DNA from: Halorubrum salinum
GTDB taxonomy: Archaea > Halobacteriota > Halobacteria > Halobacteriales > Haloferacaceae
Assembly (NCBI RefSeq): GCF_024494575.1
Contig: NZ_JANHDO010000003.1
Span: 186,001-250,000 of the forward strand
Length of the DNA stretch: 64,000 nucleotides
Direction of reading: 5' to 3'
Positions 6,315-14,870 of this stretch are shown piece by piece (positions within the stretch are counted from its first letter, which is position 1; every line of letters starts with the position of its first letter). The notes beneath the pieces are model-generated. The model saw only the letters and a list, made by a program, of their open reading frames with translations, had not been told where the DNA came from and ran no database searches. The translations under genes were made by a program, and so were the position numbers.

Positions 6315-6380
6315 CCGTGCCGAGGTCGACGGGGCCGCGAGAGGGGTCTGACCGCTTCTCAGCGGCCGGGTGTTCGGACA

Positions 6381-6390
6381 AAGTATACAT
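6381..6390 (+). promoter_or_regulatory. TATA box of acs1
   Basis: AAGTATACAT lies about 28 bases before the ATG at 6414. An archaeal TATA box sits about 26 nt before the transcription start, so the acs1 message would begin at or next to its start codon (leaderless). The short arms GTTCG and CGAAC flank the box at a distance, but the repeat is too short to call an operator. Confidence 0.6.
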
Positions 6391-6413: not shown

Positions 6414-8384
6414 ATGGATGACGCCGGAGTGGACGGCCGGCGCTCGCTCGGGAACGACAGCGCGGTCGTGAGCGGCGGCGACGCGATCGACCCGCCGGAG
6501 TCGTTCCGCGACCGGGCGGTCGCGAGCAACGCCGAGGTGTACGAGTCGTTCGAGCGGGAGGGACCCGAGGCCTGGCGAAGGGCGGCCGACCTGCTCGACT
6601 GGGAGCGACCGTACGAAACCGTCCTCGACGACGACGATCCGCCCTTTTACGAGTGGTTCCCCGAGGGACGGCTCAACGCCGCGACGAACTGCGTCGATCG
6701 GCACCTCGAAGACCGGCGGAACCAGCTCGCGATCCGGTGGTTCGGCAAGCGCGGCGAGCGCCGGTCGTACACCTACCTCGACTTACACCGGGAGGTGAAC
6801 GCGCTGGCGGCCGGGCTTCGCGACCTCGGCGTCGGCGAGGACGACGTGGTGACCCTGTATCTCCCCATGATACCGGAGCTGCCGGTCGCGATGCTCGCGT
6901 GCGCCCGGATCGGCGCGCCGCACAACGTCGTCTTCGCGGGGCTCTCGGCGGAGGCGTTGGCGACGCGGATCGACGCCGCTGACTCGGAGTACCTGATCAC
7001 CTGTGACGGCTACTACCGCCGCGAGGACGCGTTCAACCAGAAGTCGAAGGCCGACAACGCTCGGCTCCGGATCGACGGCGACCTGCGTGAGACGGTCGTC
7101 GTCGATCGGCTCGGCGACGCTCTCGACGTATCGCTCGGCGACGACGAGCACGCCTACGAGAGCCTCGTCGACGCGCACGACGGCGAGACGGTGGATCCCG
7201 TCGCCCGCGACGCGACGGACCTCCTGTTCGTGATGTACACGTCGGGGACGACCGGCCGACCGAAGGGCGTCGAGCACGCCACGGGCGGGTACCTCTCGCA
7301 GGTCGCGTGGACCACGCGCAACGTCCTCGACGTCCGCCCGGACGACACCTACTGGTGTGCCGCAGACATCGGGTGGATCACGGGTCACTCCTACGGCGTG
7401 TACGGACCGCTCGCGCTCGGGACGACGACGGTGCTCTACGAGGGATCGCCCGACTACCCCGACCGCGACCGCGTCTGGGACCTGATCGAGCGCAACGCGG
7501 TGAGCGTCTTCTACACCTCGCCCACCGCGATACGGTCGTTCATGAAGTGGGGCTCGGAGTACCCGGACGCCCACGACCTCTCGTCGATCCGCCTCCTGGG
7601 GACCGTCGGCGAGTCGATCACGCCGAAGGCGTGGCGGTGGTACCGCGAGCACGTCGGCGGCGGCGACGTCCCGGTCGTCGACACGTGGTGGCAGACCGAG
7701 ACGGGCGCGATCGCGCTCGCGACGCTCCCCGGGATCTCGCCGATGAAACCCGGGACGGTGGGACCGCCGCTCCCCGGGATCGACGCGCGCGTGGTCGACG
7801 AGGACGGCGACCCGGTCGAGCCCGGCGAGCCCGGCTACCTCACGATCGCCGCGCCGTGGCCCGGCATGTTGCGCGGGCTCCGCGAGGGCGACGACCGCTA
7901 CCGCCGCGAGTACTGGTTGGAGGGCGAGGACGGCTGGCGGTACCGGACCGGCGACGGCGCGACCGTCGACGAGGACGGGTACATCACGATCCTCGGTCGC
8001 GTCGACGACGTGATCAACGTCCGCGCGCACCGGTTCAACACCGCCGAACTGGAGTCGGCCATCGTCGAGACGGACGGCGTGACGGAGGCGGCGGTCGTCG
8101 GCGATGACGACGGCCAGATCGTGGCGTACGTCACCACCCAAAGAGGGGTCGACACCGACGATCCGCTCCGCGAGGCGATAGGCGAGCGGCTCGCCCGGTC
8201 CGTCGGCGACGTCGCCCGTCCGGATCGGATCGTCTTCACGCCGGAGCTGCCGAAGACTCGCTCCGGGAAGATCATGCGCCGGCTGCTGGAAGACATCGCC
8301 CGCGGCGAGGAGTTCGGTGACGTCAGCGCGCTCCGGAACCCCGAGGTCGTCGGCGAGATCGAATCGACCGTTCGCGAGGAGTGA
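6414..8384 (+). CDS. acs: acetyl-CoA synthetase-like AMP-forming acyl-CoA ligase, divergent copy
   Basis: The 656-residue protein is colinear with acetyl-CoA synthetase, which makes acetyl-CoA from acetate, ATP and CoA via acetyl-AMP. It has the adenylate motif YTSGTTGRPKGVEH at 275-288, DTWWQTETG, RTGDGATVDEDGY, the hinge LGRVDDVINV and the C-terminal acetylation-site motif PKTRSGKIMRR. Several normally fixed positions differ from the second copy at 10535: ESITP for EPINP, TETGA for TETGG, and RAHRFNT (537-543) for SGHRLGT. It may prefer another short acid or be less active. ATG 6414 is chosen over TTG 6399 because it fits the TATA spacing. A 260-base gap and then the Bat-type regulator follow. 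Confidence 0.88.
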   Translation: MDDAGVDGRRSLGNDSAVVSGGDAIDPPESFRDRAVASNAEVYESFEREGPEAWRRAADLLDWERPYETVLDDDDPPFYEWFPEGRLNAATNCVDRHLEDRRNQLAIRWFGKRGERRSYTYLDLHREVNALAAGLRDLGVGEDDVVTLYLPMIPELPVAMLACARIGAPHNVVFAGLSAEALATRIDAADSEYLITCDGYYRREDAFNQKSKADNARLRIDGDLRETVVVDRLGDALDVSLGDDEHAYESLVDAHDGETVDPVARDATDLLFVMYTSGTTGRPKGVEHATGGYLSQVAWTTRNVLDVRPDDTYWCAADIGWITGHSYGVYGPLALGTTTVLYEGSPDYPDRDRVWDLIERNAVSVFYTSPTAIRSFMKWGSEYPDAHDLSSIRLLGTVGESITPKAWRWYREHVGGGDVPVVDTWWQTETGAIALATLPGISPMKPGTVGPPLPGIDARVVDEDGDPVEPGEPGYLTIAAPWPGMLRGLREGDDRYRREYWLEGEDGWRYRTGDGATVDEDGYITILGRVDDVINVRAHRFNTAELESAIVETDGVTEAAVVGDDDGQIVAYVTTQRGVDTDDPLREAIGERLARSVGDVARPDRIVFTPELPKTRSGKIMRRLLEDIARGEEFGDVSALRNPEVVGEIESTVREE

Positions 8385-8610: not shown

Positions 8611-8641
8611 TTTTATTTCGGTTTGGCTGTACGATCCGAAA
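8611..8641 (+). promoter_or_regulatory. TATA box and inverted repeat before the Bat-type regulator
   Basis: TTTTATTT at 8611-8618 is a TATA-like box about 30 bases before the ATG at 8645. It overlaps the left arm of an inverted repeat TTTCGG (8616-8621) and CCGAAA (8636-8641) with a 14-base spacer, which covers the expected transcription start. This is a possible operator, for example for autoregulation, but the arms are only six bases. Confidence 0.4.
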
Positions 8642-8644
8642 CAG

Positions 8645-10441
8645 ATGCCTGACGCGCTCGACACGGAGGCGTACGACGCGCTCGTGACCGCCGCGGAGAC
8701 GTACCGCGCGGCGCTGACGGTCCGGCTCGCCGGCGAGGCCGGGCTCCGGGCCGACGAGATCGGACGCGTCACGCCCGGTCACCTCCGGGAGGTGGGCGTC
8801 GCGTCTGAACACGTCCTCCTCGCCGTCCCGTCGGGAGACGAGAGCGCGGGCCCGGAGACGGCGGACGAGTCTCCGAACGACGGGGGCTCGATCGACCGCG
8901 AGACCGTTGCTCCTGCGTCGCTCGCCGCCGAACTCCGAAGATACGCAGACAGCGAGGGGATCGGCGAGACCGACCCGTTCGTGAGCGTGTCTGCGCGGCG
9001 GATCCAGATGGTCGTGCGCGAGACGGCGACGCGCGCGTCGGCACGGACCGACGGGACCGTCAGTCCGGACGTGACCGTGAACGACCTCAGACACACCTTC
9101 GCGCGCCGCCTCCTCGTCGACCGCGACGTCGACCCCCACGCCGTTCGCGACGCCGGCGGGTGGGAGACGACCGCGCCCCTCGACCCGTACCTCGACCGTC
9201 TCGACGGGCGAGCGCTCGCCGAGGCCGTCGCTCGTCCCCCGTCAGGTCGGGACGCGCCCGCCGCCCCGAACGACGCGGGCGGGACGTCGGACCCGGACCG
9301 GGCGGCACCGACCGGGCTCGCCGGATTCGAGGCGATCGCGACCGGAGACGACGACGGCGACGGTCGTCCCATCTCGGCGGTACCGCGGCGGCTCGCGGCG
9401 GACGACAGGTGGGCTGAGGCGTGGGTTGTCCGCGAGCCCACCGACGGCGGCCGCGTCGACGTCGCGGGAGCCGCGGGCGTCGAACCGGAGGCGCTCCGCG
9501 AGCGCGGGCTCGTCGACGGCGGACCGTGGCACGACGCACTGGAGGGGACCGCGGTGACCACCGACGGCCATCCCACGACGGGGGGGCGGCCCGCGGTAGC
9601 GGTCCCGGTCACCTACGAGAACGTGACGCACGGCTCGCTGTGTGCGGTCGCCGCCGACGGCCGCCCGGTCGACGCGCCCGAACGTCGAACGACAGAGGTG
9701 CTCGGACGGTCGCTCGGCTGGGCCGTGACCGCGAGGCGCTGGCGGAAGCTGCTCCACTCCGACGCGGTGACCGAGGTGGAGTTTCAGACGACCGACGACG
9801 CCGCGTTCCTCGCGCGGGCGAGCGCGGCTCTCGACTGTCAGATCGACCTCTCTTCGACGGTCACCGTCTCCGACGACACGTCCCGATTGTATCTGTCGGT
9901 GACCGACGCCAGACCGCAGGGGATCGCGGACGTCGTCGACGGCCTTCCCGGCGTCTCCGATCTCCGCCTGATCGAGACCGACGAGGAGGGGTGCTCGGTG
10001 TCGGTTCAGGTGACGGAGGGGTCCGCCGTCCAGACGCTCACCGACTACGGGGCCACGGTCCGCGACGCGACGGCCGCGGACGGCCGGGTGCGCGTCATCG
10101 CAGATCTGCCCGAAGGGACGGACGTGCGTCCGGTCGCAGACGGGTTTCGCCGCGCGTTCGACGAGGCGCGACTCGCGAGCAAGGAGTCGGTCGCGCGGTC
10201 TCCCCGGACCGAATCGTCGCTCCGTGAGGGAGTCAAAGACCGGTTCACAGACCGGCAGTGGACCGCGCTCTCGGCCGCGTACCACGGCGGGTACTTCGAC
10301 TGGCCGCGGGGGAGCACCGCCGAGGAGGTCGCCGACGCGATGGACGTCTCGTCGCCGACGTTCCACAACCACCTCCGGAAGGCCCAGCGCGCGCTCTTGG
10401 ACGGGCTCTTCGAGGACGAGCGCCGACTGCGCCGCTCGTGA
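8645..10441 (+). CDS. Bat-type transcriptional activator with a tyrosine-recombinase-like N-terminal domain
   Basis: The 598-residue protein has four parts. Residues 10-195 resemble the tyrosine recombinase catalytic domain, with GLRADEIGRV (Arg35), NDLRHTFARR (146-155) and GGW...DPYL (Trp173, Tyr182). Residues 250-365 look like a GAF sensor. Residues 375-520 are a BAT (bacterio-opsin activator) domain, and 530-590 are an HTH_10 DNA-binding domain with STAEEVADAMDVSSPTFHNHLRKAQRALL. The catalytic His before DLRHTF is Asn146, so recombinase activity is doubtful; Arg35, Arg149 and Tyr182 remain. The BAT-HTH end marks it as a haloarchaeal regulator. Lying between two acs genes and before an acetate-type symporter, it probably controls acetate use (inference). 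Confidence 0.82.
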   Translation: MPDALDTEAYDALVTAAETYRAALTVRLAGEAGLRADEIGRVTPGHLREVGVASEHVLLAVPSGDESAGPETADESPNDGGSIDRETVAPASLAAELRRYADSEGIGETDPFVSVSARRIQMVVRETATRASARTDGTVSPDVTVNDLRHTFARRLLVDRDVDPHAVRDAGGWETTAPLDPYLDRLDGRALAEAVARPPSGRDAPAAPNDAGGTSDPDRAAPTGLAGFEAIATGDDDGDGRPISAVPRRLAADDRWAEAWVVREPTDGGRVDVAGAAGVEPEALRERGLVDGGPWHDALEGTAVTTDGHPTTGGRPAVAVPVTYENVTHGSLCAVAADGRPVDAPERRTTEVLGRSLGWAVTARRWRKLLHSDAVTEVEFQTTDDAAFLARASAALDCQIDLSSTVTVSDDTSRLYLSVTDARPQGIADVVDGLPGVSDLRLIETDEEGCSVSVQVTEGSAVQTLTDYGATVRDATAADGRVRVIADLPEGTDVRPVADGFRRAFDEARLASKESVARSPRTESSLREGVKDRFTDRQWTALSAAYHGGYFDWPRGSTAEEVADAMDVSSPTFHNHLRKAQRALLDGLFEDERRLRRS

Positions 10442-10499
10442 CTCGTGGGGCGGCGGGCCCCGCGGAGAGTATCACGATTTTTCGTATTTAGCGTGAGCG

Positions 10500-10508
10500 T
10501 TTATATGG
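10500..10508 (+). promoter_or_regulatory. TATA box of acs2
   Basis: TTTATATGG lies about 31 bases before the ATG at 10535, in an A/T-rich patch (10479-10508) that stands out from the GC-rich surroundings. The position predicts a very short 5' leader. Confidence 0.6.
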
Positions 10509-10534: not shown

Positions 10535-12526
10535 ATGACAGAGGGTGACGGTCAACTGGAAGCGAGGTTGGCAGAGCAGGCGGTGTTCGAGCCGTCGGAG
10601 TCGTTCGTCGAACAGGCGAACGTCTCCGACCCCGAGATCTACGACGATTTCGAGGAGAACTGGCCGGAGTGCTGGGAGACGGCGGCCGACCTTCTCGACT
10701 GGGAAACCGGGTACGATCAGGTGCTCGACGATAGTAACCCGCCCTTCTACGAGTGGTTCACGGGCGGCGAACTGAACGCGTCGGCGAACTGTCTCGACCG
10801 ACACCTCGACGAGCGGGGCGACGAGGCCGCGATCGAGTGGGTCGGCGAGCCCGTCGACGAGGACGATCGCACGTACACGTACGAGGAACTCCACCGCGAG
10901 GTAAACGAGTTCGCGGCCGCGCTCCGCGAACAGGGCGTAGAGGAGGACGACGTGGTGACGATGTACATGCCGATGATCCCGGAGCTGCCGATCGCGATGC
11001 TGGCGTGCGCCCGTATCGGCGCGCCCCACAGCGTCGTCTTCGCGGGATTCTCCGCCGACGCGCTCGCGACGCGCATGAACTCCGCGGACTCCGAGTATCT
11101 CGTCACCTGCGACGGCTACTACCGGCGCGGCGACCCCCTCGACCACTTGGAGAAGGCCAACGAGGGGCTCGCGGACGTCGAGCACGACACCACGACGGTC
11201 GTCGTCGACCGACTCGGCCCGAACGGCGACGACTTCGGCCGCGACCTCGGCGACGACCAGATCGACTACGACGACCTCGTCGACGCCCACGCCGGCGCGG
11301 AGGTCGAGCCGGTCACCCGCGACGCGGAGGACATGCTGTTCCTCATGTACACGTCGGGGACCACGGGCAAGCCGAAGGGCGTGAAACACACGACCGGCGG
11401 GTATCTGTCATGGGTTTCCTGGACGTCTCAGGCCGTCCTCGACATCAAGCCCGAAGACACGTACTTCTGCTCGGCCGACATCGGCTGGATCACGGGCCAT
11501 TCGTACATCGTCTACGGGCCGCTGTCGCTGGGGACCACGACGATGATGTACGAGGGGACGCCGGACCACCCGGAGCGCGACCGGCTCTGGGAGATAGTGG
11601 AAGAGTACGACGCGACCCAGCTGTACACCGCGCCGACCGCCATCCGCGCGTTCATGAAGTGGGGCGAGGAGTACCCCGACCGTCACGACCTCTCCAGCCT
11701 GCGGCTGCTCGGGACCGTCGGCGAGCCGATCAACCCGCGCGCCTGGAAGTGGTACTACCAGCACATCGGCGACGAGGAGTGTCCCGTCGTCGACACGTGG
11801 TGGCAGACCGAGACGGGCGGGATGATGGTAACGACGCTCCCGGGCGTCAAGGACATGAAGCCGGGAGCGGCCGGACCGCCGCTGCCGGGTCTCGACGTCC
11901 AGATCCTCGATACGCTCGGCGACGAAGTGGAGCCGGGCAAGGCCGGCTACCTCACGGTACAGAAGCCGTGGCCGGGGATGCTCCGAACGCTGTATAAAAA
12001 CGACGAGCGGTACATCGAGGAGTACTGGGCGGAGTACTCCGACACGGACAGCGACGACCCCGACGACTGGGTGTACTTCCCCGAGGACGGGGCCAAGATC
12101 GACGACGACGGCTACATCACCGTGCTCGGCCGCGTCGACGACGTGCTCAACGTCTCCGGCCACCGGCTCGGGACGATGGAGATAGAGTCGGCCATCGTCG
12201 GCGTCGAGGGCGTCGCGGAGGCCGCCGTCGTCGGCGGTGACCACGACATCAAAGGCGAGGCCGTCTACGCGTACGTGACGACGGAAGACGGCTACGAGGG
12301 CAACGACGAGCTTCGCGAGGCGATCGTCGCCGCCGTCGAGGACGCCATCGGGCCGATCGCTCGCCCCGAACAGGTCGTGTTCACGCCCGACCTCCCGAAG
12401 ACCCGCTCCGGAAAGATCATGCGCCGCCTGCTGGAGAACATCGCCGACGGCAAGGAGTTGGGTAACACCAGCACGCTCCGGAATCCCGAGATCGTCGAGG
12501 AGATCCAGCAGAAAGCCAACGAGTAG
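10535..12526 (+). CDS. acs: acetyl-CoA synthetase (AMP-forming), canonical copy
   Basis: The 663-residue protein has all classical Acs motifs: YTSGTTGKPKGVKH (272-285), TVGEPINPRAW, DTWWQTETGGMM, the hinge LGRVDDVLNVSGHRLGT (Ser541, Gly542 in the CoA tunnel position) and the C-terminal PKTRSGKIMRRLL containing the lysine acetylated in bacterial Acs. It activates acetate to acetyl-CoA in the cytosol. It is clearly a paralogue of the protein at 6414, with the same N-terminal arrangement (ESFVEQANVSDPEIYDDFEENW), but keeps the signature residues the other has lost. A solute symporter operon begins 110 bases downstream, which supports acetate as substrate. Confidence 0.94.
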   Translation: MTEGDGQLEARLAEQAVFEPSESFVEQANVSDPEIYDDFEENWPECWETAADLLDWETGYDQVLDDSNPPFYEWFTGGELNASANCLDRHLDERGDEAAIEWVGEPVDEDDRTYTYEELHREVNEFAAALREQGVEEDDVVTMYMPMIPELPIAMLACARIGAPHSVVFAGFSADALATRMNSADSEYLVTCDGYYRRGDPLDHLEKANEGLADVEHDTTTVVVDRLGPNGDDFGRDLGDDQIDYDDLVDAHAGAEVEPVTRDAEDMLFLMYTSGTTGKPKGVKHTTGGYLSWVSWTSQAVLDIKPEDTYFCSADIGWITGHSYIVYGPLSLGTTTMMYEGTPDHPERDRLWEIVEEYDATQLYTAPTAIRAFMKWGEEYPDRHDLSSLRLLGTVGEPINPRAWKWYYQHIGDEECPVVDTWWQTETGGMMVTTLPGVKDMKPGAAGPPLPGLDVQILDTLGDEVEPGKAGYLTVQKPWPGMLRTLYKNDERYIEEYWAEYSDTDSDDPDDWVYFPEDGAKIDDDGYITVLGRVDDVLNVSGHRLGTMEIESAIVGVEGVAEAAVVGGDHDIKGEAVYAYVTTEDGYEGNDELREAIVAAVEDAIGPIARPEQVVFTPDLPKTRSGKIMRRLLENIADGKELGNTSTLRNPEIVEEIQQKANE

Positions 12527-12636: not shown

Positions 12637-13107
12637 ATGACAGATAATAGCTCACACGACACGGACGACGTGGCCACCGACGGGGGCCGCGCAGCCGACG
12701 ACGCGGCCACCGATGGCGGCGTCGCGACCGGCGCGGCACAGAAGCACAGCGACACCGACTACCTCGGAGCGGAGGTGAACATCCTGAATCCGAGCACGCC
12801 GTACATGCGCGATCACCTCCGCATCGTCTGGACCGGGTTCGCCATCTGGGTCCTCGCGGTGTGGGGACCGGTGACCCTGACGCGGCTCGCACCCGGCCCG
12901 ATGACGAGCCAGATGCCGATCTTGGGATTCCCGCTCCACTACTTCCTCGTCGCGTTCGGTGCGCCGACCAGCGCGCTGATCTTAGCGTTCTGGTACTCGC
13001 GTAAGCGAGACGCGCTCGACGAGAAGTACGGTATCGACCACGCCACCGGTACGGAGAGCGGAAGCAGCGCTAACGTCGCCGCGACCGACGGGGGGTCCGA
13101 CGAATGA
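12637..13107 (+). CDS. DUF4212 small subunit of a sodium:solute symporter
   Basis: The 156-residue protein has two membrane helices, at about 64-84 and 98-120, in the DUF4212 pattern with YMRDHLRIVWTGFAIWVLAVWG. DUF4212 proteins always accompany a large symporter of the SSS family, and that gene starts inside this one's stop codon (ATGA, 13104-13107). Both tails are low-complexity and carry the motif A-T-D-G-G: twice at the N-terminus (DVATDGGRAADDAATDGG) and once at the C-terminus (VAATDGGSDE). The role is inferred as an accessory subunit for acetate or other monocarboxylate uptake. Confidence 0.85.
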   Translation: MTDNSSHDTDDVATDGGRAADDAATDGGVATGAAQKHSDTDYLGAEVNILNPSTPYMRDHLRIVWTGFAIWVLAVWGPVTLTRLAPGPMTSQMPILGFPLHYFLVAFGAPTSALILAFWYSRKRDALDEKYGIDHATGTESGSSANVAATDGGSDE

Positions 13108-14870
13108 CCGCGAGTTCGCTCCTCCTACAGAGCGACCTCCTTCCGGAGGCGCTCGACATCTCGTTCAAGATAGGGCCGGCGCTCCTCGTCATCGGAATGT
13201 TGGGCCTGTTCCTCACGATCGGCTTCGTCTTCCGCGTGGCCGACACCGACGACATGTGGGTCGCCGGTCGGTCCATCGGGAACGTCGAGAACGGCATGGC
13301 GATCGGGGCGAACTGGATGTCGGCCGCCTCGTACCTCGGCATGGCAGCGTCGATCGCGCTCGCGGGGTTCTACGGGCTCGTGTTCGTCGTCGGCTGGACG
13401 ACGGGCTACTTCATCCTGCTCATCTTCCTCGCCGCGCAGCTGCGCCGCTTCGGGAAGTACACCGCGCCGGACTTCGTCGGCGACCGCTTCAACTCCGACA
13501 CCGCGCGCGCCATCGCGGCGGTGACGACGTTCCTCATCGGATTCGTCTACGCCATCGGCCAGGCGAAGGGGATGGCGCTCGTCGGCCTGTACATCTTCGG
13601 TAACTACGGGGGGCTCATTCCCGGCCTCGACGGGTACCAGGTGATGGTCGTCGCCATGATGGTCGTCACCGTGGGCTACCTGACCCTGTCCGGGATGCTG
13701 GGCGCTACGAAGAACCAGGCCGTCCAGTACGTCATCCTCATCCTCGCGTTCGTCGTCGGGCTGTTCGTCGTCGGCTGGACGAACGGCTACTCCACGGTGT
13801 TACCGCAGCTCGAATACGGGATGTTGATCAGCGAACTCGGTAGCGAGTTCTCCGAGCCGTTCGCCTCGTCGAGCTACTACCTCTGGGTCGCCACCACGTT
13901 CTCGCTGATCGTCGGCACCTGCGGCCTGCCGCACGTGCTCGTCCGGTTCTACACGGTCGAGAGCGAACGGACGGCCCGCTGGTCGACGGTGTGGGGGCTG
14001 TTCTTCATCTGTATCCTCTACTGGAGCGCTCCGGCGTTCGCGGCGTTCGGGACCGACCTCTACTCGCAGAACGTCGGTGCGACCTACGGCGACCCCGGCA
14101 TGACGAGCGCGGCCAGCGAGGTCATCGTCGTGCTGGCGGCGCAGCTGTCCGGGCTCCCGGACTGGTTCGTCGGCATCGTCGCGGCCGGCGGTATCGCCGC
14201 GGCGATCGCGACGGTCGCCGGGCTGTTCATCGCCGGTTCCTCGGCGATCAGCCACGACATCTACACGAACATCATCAACGAGGACGCGACGCAGCGCCAG
14301 CAGATCCTCGTCGGCCGCCTCTCGATCGTCGCGCTGGGCGCGCTGACCACGCTGGCCGCGCTCAACCCCGCGTCGTCGATCGCGGCGCTCGTGGGATACG
14401 CGTTCTCGCTCGCCGGCTCCGTCCTGTTCCCGATGTTCTTCCTCGGTATGTGGTGGGAGAACGCCAACCGGCCGGGCGCACTCGCAGGCATGACGACCGG
14501 GCTCACGCTCTGGTCGATCCCGATGATCAACCAGATCGTCCCGACGTACATCGGCTCCCTCGAAGCGCCGCTGTCGGCGGGACTGGCTCAGTGGATGCCC
14601 GCCATCGGATCGGCGCTCATCACGCTCCCGATCGTGTTCGTCGTCACCATCGTCGTCTCGATGGCGACCGACGAGCCGTCGCTCGAAACGAAGCGGATCG
14701 TCCGGCAGTGTCACAGCCCCGAGCCGATGGGGCAACAGGAGACCGCCGAGGACGTGGTCGCCGCGGACGGCGGTGAGGACGTTGCGACCGATGGTGGCCG
14801 CGCAATCGACGACGCGGCCGCCGAGGGCGACCGCGCAGTTGACGACGGATCAACGGAGGAGGAACGATAA
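13104..14870 (+). CDS. sodium:solute symporter, probable acetate permease (SSS family)
   Basis: The 588-residue protein has about thirteen membrane helices and SSS-family features: DDMWVAGRSIGNVENGMAIG near residue 50, WMSAASYLGMAAS, TGYFILLIFLAAQLRRFGKYT, and GLPHVLVRFYTV. Family members partnered with a DUF4212 subunit (VC_2705-like, related to ActP) move acetate or similar acids with sodium. The C-terminal tail (about 545-588) is acidic and carries VAADGGEDVATDGGRAIDD. It overlaps the small subunit by 4 bases and the UspA gene by 1 base. With two acs genes upstream, acetate is the most likely substrate; this is inference. Confidence 0.88.
   Translation: MTASSLLLQSDLLPEALDISFKIGPALLVIGMLGLFLTIGFVFRVADTDDMWVAGRSIGNVENGMAIGANWMSAASYLGMAASIALAGFYGLVFVVGWTTGYFILLIFLAAQLRRFGKYTAPDFVGDRFNSDTARAIAAVTTFLIGFVYAIGQAKGMALVGLYIFGNYGGLIPGLDGYQVMVVAMMVVTVGYLTLSGMLGATKNQAVQYVILILAFVVGLFVVGWTNGYSTVLPQLEYGMLISELGSEFSEPFASSSYYLWVATTFSLIVGTCGLPHVLVRFYTVESERTARWSTVWGLFFICILYWSAPAFAAFGTDLYSQNVGATYGDPGMTSAASEVIVVLAAQLSGLPDWFVGIVAAGGIAAAIATVAGLFIAGSSAISHDIYTNIINEDATQRQQILVGRLSIVALGALTTLAALNPASSIAALVGYAFSLAGSVLFPMFFLGMWWENANRPGALAGMTTGLTLWSIPMINQIVPTYIGSLEAPLSAGLAQWMPAIGSALITLPIVFVVTIVVSMATDEPSLETKRIVRQCHSPEPMGQQETAEDVVAADGGEDVATDGGRAIDDAAAEGDRAVDDGSTEEER

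Follow-up and report, generated by a model that had tools for sequence, protein, structure and literature searches.

What is a domain resembling a tyrosine recombinase doing in a transcription regulator that is encoded between two acetyl-CoA synthetase genes? The question is raised by a single open reading frame in the window, by which we mean the whole stretch of 64,000 nucleotides of Halorubrum salinum DNA that was analysed. The first-pass annotation, made from the letters alone, had read the protein as a recombinase-like domain followed by GAF-like, BAT and HTH_10 domains. The recombinase-like, BAT and HTH_10 domains were confirmed in the frame, and the GAF-like one gave a weak match:

8645..10441, + strand: INT-BAT regulator gene, 598 aa (open ORF; domain matches; full-length relatives across Halobacteriales)
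8645..9232, + strand: residues 1-196, tyrosine-recombinase catalytic-domain fold with a degraded active site and without a core-binding domain (profile, predicted structure, alignment)
9335..9754, + strand: about residues 231-370, GAF-like region (weak Pfam match; GAF_2 of relatives; alpha/beta pattern in the full-length model)
9761..10225, + strand: residues 373-527, BAT domain (PF15915, 1.9e-40)
10244..10399, + strand: residues 534-585, HTH_10 DNA-binding domain (PF04967, 5.3e-19; dN/dS about 0.05)

Domains of the regulator and the fold of its N-terminus

The HMM search that had been suggested for the integrase-like part returned a Phage_integrase match at residues 117-183 (5.7e-6), which in the window protein fell just below the gathering score (26.6 bits; gathering score 27.1). 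The GAF_2 match was weak (0.014). When 36 family members were scanned with Pfam, BAT, HTH_10 and Phage_integrase were each found in all 36 and GAF_2 in 21, so that the pairing of BAT with HTH_10 that marks Bat-type regulators was present in every relative scanned as well as in the window protein. The nearest relatives of the window protein were all from Halorubrum, and most of the Halorubrum genomes searched carried the regulator at 61-69% identity. Across the class, 333 of 391 genomes matched the N-terminal domain profile, some of them through ordinary integrases, and no relative was found when a phage collection was searched with this domain. Regulators of Natrialbaceae (L069-L113) were longer, at about 730-780 aa, with extra sequence separating INT from BAT; 12 of the 36 relatives scanned were hit by PAS models, so this extra sequence probably includes a PAS domain.

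A profile of the N-terminal domain, built from 46 sequences, matched archaeal XerA (4a8e, 4.5e-15, positions 5-171; 5hxy, 2.2e-7) and covered the whole catalytic domain. The AlphaFold model of residues 1-202 had a pLDDT of 90.9 and was matched to XerA by Foldseek (E 1.5e-6). The comparison of roughly the first 200 residues with a recombinase fold, which the first-pass annotation had proposed as a check, came out in its favour, as the VIA alignment with XerA 5hxy gave a Z of 17.7 and an rmsd of 2.7 over 153 residues, with residues 1-183 falling on the catalytic fold. Phage repressors stood in the same VIA match list, SroF with a Z of 13.8 and MrpR/YopR with a Z of 11.5-12.3. Because the profile finds XerA 4a8e and the predicted structure aligns to 5hxy, the integrase match is not a chance similarity, and a tyrosine-recombinase catalytic fold at the N-terminus of the regulator is confirmed. 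XerA aligned by its second half only: the protein starts at the catalytic domain, and the core-binding domain is absent. The INT domain was acidic (20 K+R, 36 D+E). Most haloarchaeal proteins are acidic, and its charge therefore gives no sign of DNA binding.

Active-site decay, origin and selection

Arg35, Arg149 and Tyr182 were retained in the window protein and Asn146 occupied the box II His position, as had been claimed from the letters. In addition, Trp173 stood at the box III His/Trp position, and the catalytic Lys of the strand 2-3 hairpin was missing, so that the full set (Arg, Lys, His, Arg, His/Trp, Tyr) was incomplete by Lys and His. In an alignment of 112 homologs, the residues that grip the phosphate were kept in 94-100% (Arg149 in 112, Trp173 in 111 and Arg35 in 105). 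The box II His was kept in 3 of the 112, the substitutes being Ser (45), Arg (44), Gly (10) and Asn (3); Asn146 is thus one among many substitutes rather than a special feature. The nucleophilic Tyr was present in 90 proteins and replaced in 22, by His in 11, Phe in 7 and Leu in 4. The positions of the XerA hairpin Lys were taken by acidic or small residues in the family profile, and a hairpin Lys of any kind occurred in only six of the 112 proteins, always inside a long insert loop.

These results bear on whether the N-terminal domain has kept recombinase activity, or works as a nicking or topoisomerase-like enzyme, and controls transcription by cleaving DNA. Such a reading could draw on Arg35, Arg149, Trp173 and Tyr182 in the window protein and on the three relatives in which His is also kept. 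However, Asn replaces His, the XerA position has no catalytic Lys, and the 22 relatives that have exchanged the Tyr show the same gene order. With the catalytic set degraded and the core-binding domain missing, we judge active recombination very improbable. No pair of dif- or lox-like sites was seen at the locus.

Standalone proteins of about 200-230 aa from other haloarchaea were matched by the fused domain at E 1e-45 to 1e-53, versus about 1e-22 for ordinary integrases. The closest of these relatives retain a complete R-K-H-R-W-Y set. In the tree, the fused domains formed one clade (support 100/99), which three standalone proteins adjoin. Because the fused domains form one clade, they go back to a single ancient fusion in haloarchaeal ancestry, after which catalysis was lost. 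Median dN/dS was 0.35 for the INT domain, 0.24 for BAT and 0.05 for HTH_10, indicating purifying selection on the INT domain, although these values are rough because synonymous sites are probably near saturation in such GC-rich genomes. The standalone proteins of loci L181-L188 (200-230 aa) consisted of the catalytic domain alone, with R-K-H-R-W-Y complete and without a core-binding domain, and are the nearest kin of the fused domain and possible minimal recombinases. Two integrase genes of 233 aa with identical scores lay on small contigs of the window genome (G000:C4:8600-8920 and G000:C5:1291-1611); the two probably stem from the same mobile element or plasmid, present more than once.

The earlier proposal that a recombinase fold had been reused in a regulator, as a second DNA-binding or dimerisation module, was borne out in its first part: the fold, the family-wide loss of the chemistry, the complete standalone kin, the single clade and the purifying selection all support reuse. 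The task taken on by the module is less certain. Retention of Arg, Arg and Trp with loss of the acid/base and nucleophile residues is the trace that a DNA-contacting role would be expected to leave; structural roles for these residues are also possible. Alternatively, the recombinase-derived domain may work off DNA, as a dimerisation or signal-relay module, with HTH_10 alone binding all sites. This possibility, which we take seriously without preferring it, is favoured by the missing core-binding domain (the DNA clamp of recombinases), by the acidity of the INT domain and by its moderate constraint relative to HTH_10. On the other hand, it is the three residues contacting the scissile phosphate that were kept while the chemistry was lost, and a DNA element found only at the regulator gene, described below, needs a binder.

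Gene order and promoter elements

The regulator ORF was confirmed to lie between two acs genes, with all genes on the + strand:

6414..8384, + strand: acs1, AMP-forming acetyl-CoA synthetase (ORF, neighbourhood comparison)
10535..12526, + strand: acs2, acetyl-CoA synthetase, opening the downstream operon (ORF, neighbourhood comparison)
12637..13107, + strand: DUF4212 small membrane subunit (ORF, neighbourhood comparison)
13104..14870, + strand: SSF sodium:acetate symporter, ActP homolog (ORF, neighbourhood; ActP of H. volcanii in PMC7746861)
14870..15331, + strand: UspA-type universal stress protein (ORF, neighbourhood comparison)

Genome contigs were scanned with the N-terminal domain alone, blind to context, which gave 80 loci from Halorubrum, Halobellus, Natrialbaceae, Halorussus, Haladaptatus, Halalkalicoccus, Halarchaeum and others; two plasmid records, from Haloferax and Halococcus, brought the set to 82. 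Where flanking DNA was covered, an acs gene lay upstream of INT-BAT in 79 of 80 loci and downstream in 79 of 79, on one strand throughout, and the downstream acs was mostly followed by DUF4212, SSF and Usp. The order acs - INT-BAT - acs was shared by the more divergent members, including those with a divergent N-terminus, and the Haloferax alexandrinus plasmid carried exactly the same cluster. Genomes without INT-BAT mostly had a lone acs2. In Halorubrum sp. CBA1125 (L062) the upstream acs was not adjacent to the regulator but about 4 kb away, seemingly through an insertion between the two. One genome that has lost the regulator (L126) retained short acs1 fragments (at about 5.3-5.4 kb) and, ahead of its acs2 (at 6.9 kb), a degenerate -56 element, and its cluster seems to have been caught in mid-decay.

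In H. volcanii, acs7-HVO_A0155-ssf-uspA28 form one transcript that is made on acetate only, and acs8 (HVO_A0158) and acs7 (HVO_A0156) are separated by one gene number (PMC7746861). HVO_A0157 falls at the position of the INT-BAT counterpart, an identity given by this position; a literature search with this locus tag found nothing on the gene. A regulator of the acetate operon was named neither in that study nor in a study of H. mediterranei.

Four promoter features were recognised by conservation or alignment:

6375..6388, + strand: conserved promoter block CGGACAAAGTATAC upstream of acs1 in Halorubrum (alignment)
8613..8641, + strand: TATA-like TTATTT and TTCG-N16-CGAA dyad, ending just before the regulator start codon (conservation)
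10478..10493, + strand: UAS-like element TTTTTCGTATTTAGCG in the promoter of the acs2 operon, at 57 nt from the acs2 ATG on its upstream side (Halorubrum conservation)
10499..10507, + strand: probable TATA element GTTTATATG of the acs2 operon (alignment; putative promoter role)

The element TTTTTCGTATTTAGCG was exact in 27 of 31 Halorubrum genomes and had at most two mismatches in all 31; it was 99% conserved in the genus, versus 53% for the 40 nt upstream. In other families, TTTTGTACAACTAGA or TTTTGTATAATTAG was found at about -56 from the acs2 start in 42 of 44 cases. The conserved element of the acs2 promoter was sought upstream of acs1 and of the regulator and was absent from both. The acs1 block of Halorubrum, CGGACAAAGTATAC, differed from the corresponding Natrialbaceae block, GGAACGTTTATTC.

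To ask whether the -56 element tracks the regulator, a matrix was built without Haloferacaceae and tested on genomes with and without the regulator, almost all of them Haloferacaceae. Eight of 11 acs2 promoters from regulator-bearing genomes scored at least 13 at -56 to -60, and the other three scored low. None of the 16 promoters from regulator-less genomes carried the element, all scoring 3.2 or less. The Halorubrum variant scored low with this general matrix. Because the regulator-less genomes also lack most of the cluster, these counts establish co-occurrence of element and regulator rather than binding, and the element may have disappeared with the cluster as a whole rather than with the regulator. 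A scan of the whole genome with the Halorubrum -56 element found an exact site at acs2 only; sites with three mismatches were at control level, and a wider regulon is therefore not claimed. Together, the conserved gene order and the promoter elements that track the regulator strongly support the link to acetate genes that the first-pass annotation had drawn.

Upstream of the regulator itself, the dyad TTCG-N15/16-CGAA was present in 72 of the 80 loci, whereas 0.8 were expected from shuffles; the half-sites TTCG and CGAA were 15 or 16 nt apart in most of them. Thirteen further loci, from other Haloferacaceae and other families, had the dyad in 11 cases, with a spacing of 16 in nearly all. It was sought upstream of acs1 and acs2 in the 80-locus set and was absent, being confined to the regulator promoter, and the pattern occurs once in the window genome. 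The dyad covers the interval between the TATA-like TTTAT and the probable start site, a placement that would suit autorepression.

It had also been suggested that the protein bridges the promoters of the two acs genes. This idea is unsupported: the genes are co-directional, the acs1 promoter carries neither element, and the dyad is found at the regulator only. The -56 element and the dyad might instead be bound by other factors, such as another HTH_10 protein, a TrmB-like protein or a TFB/TBP pair, with INT-BAT regulating only itself or distant genes. Haloarchaea have many HTH_10 regulators, 27 in Natrialba magadii (PMC3403918), and both sites are tied to the INT-BAT protein by co-occurrence rather than by experiment. 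Nevertheless, elements, regulator and cluster are found together across families and genomes without the regulator lack the -56 element, and we consider binding by other factors rather unlikely.

Candidate mechanism and known systems

We think it probable that the INT-BAT protein is a Bat-type activator dedicated to acetate uptake and activation, encoded within the cluster that it serves and equipped with a catalytically dead recombinase module. A signal would reach the GAF/BAT part, as in Bat of Halobacterium. HTH_10 would then bind at the element that lies about 56 nt ahead of acs2 and immediately before the TATA box, and the bound regulator would recruit TFB/TBP, so that acs2-DUF4212-actP-usp is switched on during growth on acetate. 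Through the TTCG-N16-CGAA dyad, the regulator may control its own gene, probably negatively. The N-terminal module would go back to a catalytic domain of the XerA type that was acquired on a single occasion in the haloarchaeal line and lost its general acid/base and nucleophile chemistry while retaining the phosphate-gripping Arg/Arg/Trp; its present role is most likely that of a second module for DNA contact or dimerisation. The -56 element does not resemble the dyad, so one binding domain would account for at most one of them. A division of labour in which the dead recombinase domain is a second sequence-specific module reading the dyad, while HTH_10 reads the -56 element, is conceivable but on the doubtful side.

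If the activator model is true, the haloarchaeal acetate operon gains a regulator, and the family would clearly exemplify how a cellular lineage turned a recombinase catalytic domain into part of a transcription factor, with catalytically complete standalone kin for comparison. If the INT domain does read the dyad, a family of transcription factors that is cellular rather than phage-borne, occurs across most Halobacteria and takes part in carbon metabolism would have been built on a retired tyrosine recombinase. Thanks to its two conserved DNA elements, the idea can be tested directly in Haloferax volcanii.

Parts of this picture have precedents. Bat of Halobacterium salinarum, the activator of bop, resembles INT-BAT in its C-terminal helix-turn-helix, in a GAF sensor that gives a weak match in the window protein and, on the proposed model, in activating a promoter that has an upstream activator sequence, but it has PAS and GAF domains, no recombinase domain, and acts on bacteriorhodopsin genes, not on acetate genes (PMC2253796, PMC3184054). 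Archaeal XerA (4a8e, 5hxy) shares the catalytic-domain fold and sequence profile with the INT domain; unlike the INT domain, it has a core-binding domain and all catalytic residues. MrpR is a DNA-binding repressor with a recombinase fold but no recombinase function, and, like the window protein, it keeps the Tyr and has Asn at the box II His position (PMC10516654). As here, MrpR/YopR of SPbeta and SroF of phi3T (8a0a, 8bj6, 9rd5) are regulators that use a recombinase fold without recombination. An incomplete active site in a recombinase fold is thus common to both groups, whereas MrpR and SroF pair a core-binding with a catalytic domain and have no other DNA-binding domain, and the window protein lacks the core-binding domain and has HTH_10. 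MrpR is a phage repressor with a core-binding domain and without BAT/HTH_10; INT-BAT belongs to an archaeal host and a core metabolic gene. Identity between MrpR/SroF and the INT domain was 10-11% in the aligned region, indicating no close sequence relation.

The family itself has been catalogued as fam30-04 among archaeal tyrosine recombinases, with no function given in the catalogue's entry (Badel et al. 2021, PMC8371274). That entry reports the same domain string, Phage_integrase, BAT and HTH_10, some with GAF_2; in the text that could be searched, neither decay of the active site nor synteny with acs, promoter elements or a role in regulation is mentioned for it. The window protein carries this string and is by it a probable fam30-04 member, with Phage_integrase 0.5 bit below the gathering score. 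The domain string and the existence of phage regulators with a dead recombinase fold are thus already known; searches of the open-access literature turned up no description of a link to acetate genes, of an active site lost across the family, of one common origin or of either promoter element. Our results suggest that an old DNA-cutting fold has been reused to help control metabolism, and the fam30-04 proteins, although listed among archaeal recombinases, are very probably not recombinases.
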